DNA of 64,000 nucleotides, taken from positions 1-64,000 of the forward strand of contig JAQTNK010000017.1 of assembly GCA_028713915.1 (NCBI GenBank). Direction: 5' to 3'. Below the pieces are notes generated by a model. That model was not told where the DNA came from, searched no databases, and saw nothing but the letters and a program-made list of their open reading frames with translations. This DNA comes from Rhodocyclaceae bacterium. GTDB taxonomy: Bacteria; Pseudomonadota; Gammaproteobacteria; Burkholderiales; Rhodocyclaceae. The position numbers were made by a program, and so were the translations under genes. Positions 3,727 through 5,807 of this stretch are shown in pieces (the stretch's first letter is position 1; every line of letters starts with the position of its first letter).

Positions 3727-3759
3727 AAGTTGACGTTAACGTCAACGTCAACTTAGAAT
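3727..3759 (+). promoter_or_regulatory. LiuR-type operator/promoter
   Basis: Perfect 18-bp palindrome GTTGACGTTAACGTCAAC (3729-3746) nested in AAGTTGACGTT...AACGTCAACTT; overlaps candidate -35 TTGACG (3730-3735) and -10 TAGAAT (3754-3759), an MerR-like layout. Confidence 0.75.
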
Positions 3760-3790
3760 GCCCGCCACCGCCACCCGAGGAGAATCGACG

Positions 3791-4267
3791 ATGACCGTGC
3801 CCCCGCCGCCCGCCGCGCCGCGCTTCGAGCCGCGCGACCCGCACTGGGCCGAGAAGGTGAAAGCCAGCTTCGAGCGCCAGCGCGTGATGGCCCTGATCGG
3901 CGCCACGCTCGCCGACATCCGTCCCGGCTGGTGCGAGATCCGCCTGCCCTACCGCGAGGATCTTTGCCAGCAGCACGGCTTTTTCCACGCCGGCATCACC
4001 ACCACCGTCGTCGACAGCGCCGCCGGCTACGCCGGCTTTTCGCTGATGCCGGCCGGCTCGTCGGTGCTCTCGGTCGAGTTCAAGATCAACATGCTGGCGC
4101 CGGGCGACGGCGAATTGCTGATCGCCACCGGCGAGGTGATCAAGCCCGGCAAGAATCTCGTCATCTGCCGCGGCGACGCCTATATCGTCAAAGGCATGAA
4201 GACGATCCACTGCGCGATGATGCAGCAGACGCTGATGACCATGCACGGGAAGAGCGAGGAGAGCTAG
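3791..4267 (+). CDS. PaaI-family (hotdog) thioesterase
   Basis: HGFFHAGITTTVVDSAAGYAGFSLMPAGSSVLSVEFKINMLAPG. Confidence 0.8.
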   Translation: MTVPPPPAAPRFEPRDPHWAEKVKASFERQRVMALIGATLADIRPGWCEIRLPYREDLCQQHGFFHAGITTTVVDSAAGYAGFSLMPAGSSVLSVEFKINMLAPGDGELLIATGEVIKPGKNLVICRGDAYIVKGMKTIHCAMMQQTLMTMHGKSEES

Positions 4268-4300
4268 GTGAAACCCTGGTTGATATCGGCAGTGGCGCGC

Positions 4301-4406
4301 GATCGGGCCGGCGGGGTGCCCTGCTGCGCTTCATGTCCCCCGTCGGCGGTGAAACCGCCTCCTCCTCCTTTACTTACGCGCAGCAGGGCACCCCACCGGC
4401 CCGATC
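4301..4406 (+). repeat. Large hairpin element A: 29-bp arms (28/29 complementary) around a 48-nt core
   Basis: Arms GATCGGGCCGGCGGGGTGCCCTGCTGCGC (4301-4329) and GCGCAGCAGGGCACCCCACCGGCCCGATC (4378-4406); core 4330-4377 TTCATGTCCCCCGTC-GGCGGTgaaACCGCC-TCCTCCTCCTTTACTTAC. Confidence 0.85.
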
Positions 4407-4456
4407 CGGAAGCACCGTGTAGTCTTGAAGTTCAAGGCACGCACCGAGGGTTCTGG

Positions 4457-4556
4457 CCACGGCGGGCGGGTGTCCGATTCCCGCAAGTAAAGGAGGAGGG
4501 CCGGCGCTTTTTCGGCCCGGGGGACATGGAGGGAATCGGACACCCGCCCGCCGTGG
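4457..4556 (-). repeat. Large hairpin element B: perfect 26-bp arms around a 48-nt core related to element A in inverted orientation
   Basis: Arms CCACGGCGGGCGGGTGTCCGATTCCC (4457-4482) and GGGAATCGGACACCCGCCCGCCGTGG (4531-4556); reverse complement of core 4483-4530 is TCCATGTCCCCC-GGGCCGaaaaagcgcCGGCCC-TCCTCCTTTACTTGC. Confidence 0.85.
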
Positions 4557-4637
4557 CGCGCGTCGCTGTCATAGGCGTCCAGCGCCCAAATCTCACTCAC
4601 GCTTCGCGGGTAACGCGACGCATCATGGAGCACTGAA

Positions 4638-5807
4638 ATGACCACTGGCCTCAATTTCGATCTCGGCGAAACCATTGACATGCTGCGCGACGCGGTGAAG
4701 GACTTCGCCGCCAAAGAGATCGCGCCGCGCGCCGCGCAGATCGACCGCGACAACGAATTCCCCGCCGACCTGTGGCGCAAGTTCGGCGACATGGGTCTCT
4801 TGGGCATGAGCGCCGAGGAGGAATACGGCGGCACCGGCATGGGCTATCTCGCGCACATCGTGGCGATGGAGGAAATCTCGCGCGCCTCCGCCTCCGTGGG
4901 ACTTTCCTACGGCGCGCACTCCAACCTCTGCGTCAATCAACTGCGCCGCAACGGCAACGCCGCGCAGAAGACGAAGTACCTGCCCAAACTCATTTCCGGC
5001 GAGCACGTCGGCGCCCTGGCGATGTCGGAACCGAATGCCGGCTCCGACGTCGTGTCGATGAAGCTGCGCGCCGAGCGCCGCGGCGACCGCTATGTGTTGA
5101 ACGGCGCCAAGATGTGGATCACCAACGGCGGCGACGCCGACACGCTGATCGTCTATGCCAAGACCGACCTCGCCGCGGGGTCGAAAGGCATGACCGCCTT
5201 CATCGTCGAGAAGGGCATGAAGGGCTTCTCCCACGGCACGCATCTCGACAAGCTCGGCATGCGCGGCTCCAACACCTATCCGCTGTTCTTCGACGATTGC
5301 GAAGTGCCGGCCGAGAACGTGCTCGGCGGTGAAGGCCAGGGCGTCAAGGTGCTGATGAGCGGCCTCGACTACGAGCGCGCCGTGCTCTCCGGCGGCCCGC
5401 TCGGCATCATGGCCGCCTGCATGGACGTCGTCGTTCCCTACCTGCACGACCGCAAGCAGTTCGGCCAGAGCATCGGCGAATTCCAGCTCATGCAGGGCAA
5501 GGTCGCCGACATGTACTCGACCTGGCAGGCGACGCGCGCCTACGTCTATGCCGTCGGCAAGGCCTGCGACCGCATGGACCACAGCCGCACCCTGCGCAAG
5601 GACGCCGCCGGCGCCATTCTCTACTCGGCCGAGAAAGCCACCTGGATGGCCGGCGAGGCGATCCAGACGCTGGGCGGCAACGGCTACATCAACGACTACC
5701 CGACCGGCCGCCTCTGGCGCGACGCCAAGCTCTACGAGATCGGCGCCGGCACGTCGGAGATTCGCCGCATGCTGATCGGCCGCGAACTGTTCAACGAGAC
5801 TGCCTAA
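4638..5807 (+). CDS. liuA: Isovaleryl-CoA dehydrogenase
   Basis: Acyl-CoA dehydrogenase family; [52 protein letters not shown] is IVD-like; first gene of the liu set. Confidence 0.88.

Follow-up and report, generated by a model that had tools for sequence, protein, structure and literature searches.

An apparently undescribed family of facing hairpin doublets with a single-strand folding constraint and an open frame across operon copies

Introduction

In a 64,000-nucleotide stretch of a Rhodocyclaceae genome (contig JAQTNK010000017.1; the window), two long hairpins face each other between a gene for a hotdog-fold thioesterase (3758-4267, stop codon TAG at 4265-4267) and a gene for an acyl-CoA dehydrogenase (4638-5807, ATG at 4638). 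What is maintained at this junction: a mobile repeat, a structured RNA kept by the host, or a small gene of which the hairpins are a by-product? A sequence-only reading of the window had noticed the pair and proposed selection on structure, with a new family of REPIN-like doublets and a core that colonizes palindromes among the possible origins. Here, we characterize the family to which the pair belongs.

Results

Two unlike hairpins form the ends of one element

Hairpin A (4301-4406) is of the GATCGGGCC type and hairpin B (4456-4557) of the GCCACGG/GCCAAGG type. The arms of A (4301-4329 and 4378-4406) are complementary at 28 of 29 positions, as had been read from the sequence, and those of B (4456-4482 and 4531-4557) form 27 perfect base pairs rather than the 26 first counted. 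Both pairs of arms enclose a core of 48 nt, in which two conserved internal-loop blocks, CATGTCCCCC and CTCCTCCTTTACTT, lie on either side of an inner stem. In A, these blocks are on the plus strand (4332-4341 and 4362-4375, respectively). In B, they are on the minus strand, with CTCCTCCTTTACTT at 4485-4498, reading as the Shine-Dalgarno (SD)-like AAGTAAAGGAGGAG on the plus strand, and CATGTCCCCC at 4519-4528, reading as GGGGGACATG. The block coordinates on opposite strands bear out the earlier description of facing hairpins with a common core, inverted in B relative to A and equidistant from position 4430. With up to two mismatches allowed, CTCCTCCTTTACTT occurs twice in the window, compared to 0.05 expected occurrences. 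A covariance model (R1), built from an alignment of 104 hairpins, matches A at 4300-4407 (83.7 bits) and B at 4454-4559 (91.5 bits).

Each hairpin folds far better than shuffled sequences (z -7.5 to -9.4), as does the whole 370-nt region (z -12.1). In the minimum free energy fold of 4268-4637, a 13-bp terminal inverted repeat, GGCAGTGGCGCGC at 4288-4300 with GCGCGTCGCTGTC at 4558-4570, closes a clover-like shape, and the spacer between A and B (4407-4455) contains a small hairpin of its own. Such MITE-type terminal repeats are also present in other copies, which have related GGTGCGCG and GGAGCGCG ends.

Across the family, the hairpins come in doublets whose two members are unlike and serve as the two ends of the element. 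With relaxed cores, 99 of 101 doublets are convergent and 2 are divergent. The cores of nearly all exact doublets are spaced 144-157 nt centre to centre; 54 exact cores have no partner at 130-175 nt, several of them having one at other spacings. When the arms were scored against two seed arms, one of each type was present in 71 of 90 doublets, and like-kind pairs numbered 6 and 5. The arms inside one doublet are no more similar than random arms, which indicates that the A and B hairpins fold separately. Each arm type is conserved among the copies within the window's genome, and drifts with compensation between lineages. The arms of A and B do differ from each other, as the sequence-only reading had it. 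Its suggestion of a core that colonizes palindromes is not supported: each arm type is passed on together with its core, and the two ends of a doublet are distinct. The blocks appear invariant in part because the search required them, but partner cores identified without this requirement still agree at 78-100% per base (79-100% for CATGTCCCCC), with no more than five mismatches allowed. Core A measures 44, 45 or 46 nt within one genome, compensated by the length of the spacer. In a variant from the genomes of family f13 (L026-L033 and L201), the inner stem is longer, with cores of about 51 nt, and the core spacing is 203-267 nt.

The family is widespread in Burkholderiales and Rhodocyclales

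The window's genome (G000) contains 24 occurrences of the exact core and 41 R1 matches, two of which are A and B; the earlier reading had proposed to look for such further copies. Another four members of the genus contain 117 (G187), 82, 23 and 26 R1 matches, some of these four genomes being incomplete. Outside the genus, a second genus of the family has 24 matches, and the two remaining genomes tried have 0 and 2. In public genomes, the exact core is found in at least 119 contigs from Burkholderiales, Rhodocyclales and some Xanthomonadaceae. Among the matches listed are Hydrogenophaga, Variovorax, Rubrivivax, Rhodoferax, Rhizobacter, Sulfuritalea and others, with Luteimonas, Lysobacter and Pseudoxanthomonas representing the Xanthomonadaceae. 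Exact-core searches favour intact cores in the sample, and the genomes are mostly drafts or metagenome-assembled genomes (MAGs), with some sites related by descent and not fully independent. Searches of viral contigs and phages gave no match, and plasmid matches are limited to six records, one of them inside an aromatic-degradation cluster. Rfam, with which a comparison had also been suggested, contains no family above its curated score; at curated and relaxed thresholds it returned nothing but chance microRNA-type matches to long hairpins. The open-access literature yielded neither the core sequence printed in such a setting nor anything relevant on similar betaproteobacterial repeats. The family is apparently undescribed.

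The element moves and avoids divergent gaps

The element moves, since related genomes show empty sites. The window locus is filled in G000 and G400 and empty in G187, G401, G402 and G411, where the two genes abut. Three sites filled in G187 are empty elsewhere: L222 in G000, G399, G401 and G411, L216 in G399, and L220 in G411. These polymorphic insertions, together with the multiple copies, support the REPIN-like doublet of an undescribed family that had been put forward.

The genes around 98 elements are co-directional in 67 cases, convergent in 26 and divergent in 5, compared to 147, 32 and 63, respectively, for 242 other gaps of at least 60 nt. Divergent gaps are thus avoided (p 4e-6). The flanking genes are diverse (137 Pfam families over 82 proteins, with at most three members each). 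A conserved neighbor gene was sought and none was found, and the 25 commonest Pfam families among these 82 proteins include no transposase.

Junctions of filled sites read TGAnATG on both sides, which is duplication-like, although the two sides are not identical. At the empty sites, the ancestral junction often already had an overlapping or adjacent stop and start codon, and this arrangement recurs at either junction of the filled sites. The operon form in the window's genus has ATGAAAC at the left and TGGAGCAACTGA at the right. The junction pattern may reflect duplication of the target, a feature that belongs to the operon form itself, or selection.

Relationship to REPINs and search for a mobilizing enzyme

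The closest known systems are REPINs, or REP doublets with their RAYT transposases (PMC3116915, PMC2817692, PMC6006769). Like these, the family consists of inverted hairpin doublets, non-autonomous and dispersed between genes, with compensatory changes and with singles as likely remnants. Unlike them, it has longer hairpins with a conserved internal loop, two unlike ends as a rule and a reading frame across operon copies. The GTAG- and CGTC-tagged palindromic repeats (PMC3733652) are similar in being palindromic, in forming inverted dimers, some of them heterodimers, and in their co-directional and convergent bias and structured spacers; the present family differs in size and sequence, has no tag tetranucleotide, and has heterodimers as the rule. 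Bacterial MITEs share the short length, multiple copies, terminal inverted repeats, lack of a transposase gene and polymorphic insertion. However, the ends of the present element are nested hairpins with covarying arms, and no parent insertion sequence was recognized between the widely spaced hairpin pairs described below.

Could the family be an ordinary REPIN, with a pair of REPs mobilized by a RAYT (TnpA_REP) transposase that has been lost from the genomes examined or escaped detection there? Its inverted doublets, single hairpins, intergenic position and co-directional and convergent bias, as in REPs (PMC3116915, PMC3733652), are what such an origin would give, and genes for Y1 transposases are present in five other element-bearing genomes. 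However, Y1_Tnp (PF01797) is absent from G000 (99.87% complete) and from G187 (99%), despite their 41 and 117 hairpins, and none of the seven Y1 loci examined carries the core. In the alignment of 104 hairpins, we saw no GTAG/GTGG-type (GT[AG]G) tag tetranucleotide at the hairpin foot, directly 5' of the hairpin; the purine strand 5' of the inner stem reads AAGTAAAGGAGGAG. The hairpins are about 100 nt long, compared to 21-65 nt for REPs. Finally, REPs are species-specific repeats (PMC6006769), whereas this core is common to several orders. The family works like a REPIN but departs from REPINs in tag, RAYT and species specificity, and we regard an ordinary REPIN as unlikely. At one locus outside these seven (L130 1559-2451), a Y1 (RAYT-like) gene (1762-2451) adjoins a single hairpin at a distance of about 100 nt, upstream of a glutamate synthase-like gene. 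This adjacency, which would fit a REPIN, could be due to chance.

Searches for Y1 genes, reverse transcriptases and neighbor genes revealed no mobilizing enzyme. A reverse transcriptase was rejected as mobilizer because PF00078 is missing from several element-bearing genomes. The lack of a Y1 transposase in the genomes where the family is commonest may point to a mobilizing enzyme not yet known. An autonomous version of the element was looked for between widely spaced hairpins and rejected. At L155 (4697-7370), facing hairpins with the same core lie 2.57 kb apart and enclose several small, functionally unassigned ORFs, with no recognized transposase. At L235 (505-2366, G187:C2), facing hairpins 1.75 kb apart surround a gene of the Fic/DOC family (979-2199), also with no transposase.

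One strand of each hairpin is constrained to fold

The 104 aligned hairpins show that pairing is under selection, as had been supposed from the window. In these sequences, 89% of cells pair, compared to 58% after shuffling, and double changes are present in 29 of the 31 pairs, with 949 doubly changed cells observed against 273 in shuffled data. The covariation score is 0.712, compared to 0.166 for shuffled and 0.08-0.13 for slid alignments; no shuffle of 500 reaches the observed value.

The mispairs are asymmetric. Read on the purine strand (AAGTAAAGGAGGAG ... GGGGGACATG), which in the window is the minus strand of A and the plus strand of B, there are 391 G.T and 28 A.C mispairs. In co-directional sites, the ratio is 102:7 for A hairpins and 91:3 for B hairpins, and it is 50:6 in a second set of hairpins picked by BLAST instead of by the core. 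The purine strand is also predicted to be the more stable in 101 of the 104 hairpins. Since the bias is equal in A and B, which are opposite in orientation to the gene, neither the direction of transcription nor that of replication explains it. The excess of G.T on the purine strand whatever the gene direction indicates that this is the strand that folds. The molecule under constraint is thus the purine strand in its folded form; it may be RNA or single-stranded DNA, RNA being favored since a G.U is counted as paired.

A resident RNA structure or processing element that the host retains for regulation, such as an RNase III site, a terminator or an attenuator, would explain the strong covariation, the G.U-type tolerance and a position just 3' of genes, and retention in orthologous pcc operons is in keeping with it. 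Yet the purine-strand bias is equally strong where this strand is antisense to the operon (102:7), the neighboring genes are unrelated and the sites are polymorphic within the genus. Core decay in operons is unbiased between strands, with the sense-strand core kept no better than the antisense core (32 versus 25, p 0.43), and an RNA function limited to the sense strand was rejected on this basis. Overall, we consider it improbable that the host keeps the hairpins as a regulatory RNA.

An open reading frame bridges operon copies

In the window, an ORF of 122 codons (4268-4636, plus strand) starts with GTG immediately 3' of the thioesterase stop codon, crosses both hairpins and ends with TGA at 4634-4636, one base 5' of the acyl-CoA dehydrogenase ATG, with GGAG at 4627-4630 within its end. 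In co-directional sites, the frame from the start codon nearest the upstream stop crosses the whole doublet in 30 of 39 cases (30 of 36 in a first count), compared to 14 of 78 for the two remaining frames at these sites (p 7e-10). Such a frame is open in 1 of 13 convergent sites. Of the 30 open frames, 27 stop between -16 and +8 nt from a start codon in the frame of the downstream gene; seven further sites in G187 also fit the pattern. These counts are approximate, since gene starts were taken from a simple caller script of our own and the genomes are mostly drafts or MAGs. At the thioesterase/acyl-CoA dehydrogenase junction of G399 (L181), a remnant in which an internal deletion has removed the whole of B and half of A nevertheless keeps a frame that is open between the upstream stop and the downstream ATG. 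A rare divergent doublet (L163, 2728-2978) is still within a bridge frame.

The peptide read from the core differs by lineage (AHVPR..SSFTSL, CPPS..PPPPLLT or LMSP..), with different frames being read. Thus, the frame is conserved and not the peptide. A real small-protein gene with the hairpins as its by-product, suggested by the open frame and its start and stop overlapping the neighbor genes, is very improbable given the differing frames, the variation in length of core A within a single genome (44, 45 and 46 nt), which the spacer offsets, the lack of a Pfam or NCBIfam match for ORF 4268-4636, and the convergent copies without such a frame (open in 1 of 13).

Discussion

We consider it probable that the pair in the window is a non-autonomous MITE/REPIN-like element of about 280 bp, with unlike hairpins as its ends, whose structure is kept while its sequence drifts and which carries a bridging frame in operons. 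The sequence-only reading had not included the bias towards the purine strand, the terminal repeats that close the fold, or the frame coupled across the doublet.

For such an element, a putative trans-acting enzyme would probably recognize the internal loop (AAGTAAAGGAGGAG / GGGGGACATG) of the purine-strand fold at both ends and move the element. The stems would then drift with compensation because pairing is the sole requirement on them, and the unlikeness of the two stems of one doublet would mean that two separate hairpins are maintained. Copies would persist between genes, mostly 3' of stop codons, while those in coding sequence or in divergent gaps would be lost or rare. In operons, copies would sit at the stop/start junction, in a frame that opens at the upstream stop and closes at the downstream start, so that ribosomes could traverse the hairpins and re-initiate. 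We interpret the open frame as translational bridging: ribosomes trailing the polymerase through the hairpins and re-initiating at the next gene would spare the operon polarity or cleavage of the hairpins, and we infer that this is why open-frame copies persist.

More tentatively, and with less confidence than in the element itself, we suggest that the element may bring its own translational bridge. The operon form would insert at stop/start junctions, carrying a start codon on one side and, on the other, an SD sequence together with a stop codon (ATGAAAC ... TGGAGCAACTGA in the window's genus); ribosomes would thread both hairpins and the operon would stay coupled, while the putative enzyme would recognize the one-strand fold as RNA or single-stranded DNA. 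The bridge frame would also account for some of the odd, short "hypothetical proteins" that annotation places between genes of an operon, as translated, non-functional spacers. It makes it testable how small mobile elements enter operons without silencing downstream genes, in a repeat family that is widespread in well-studied environmental betaproteobacteria and has a clear single-strand folding constraint.

Some copies may be useful, as the element is stably kept in several species at the carboxylase-gene junction of one pcc operon (L025, L072, L079, L081, L104 and L159). In these copies, core A mostly has a symmetric deletion and core B is intact.
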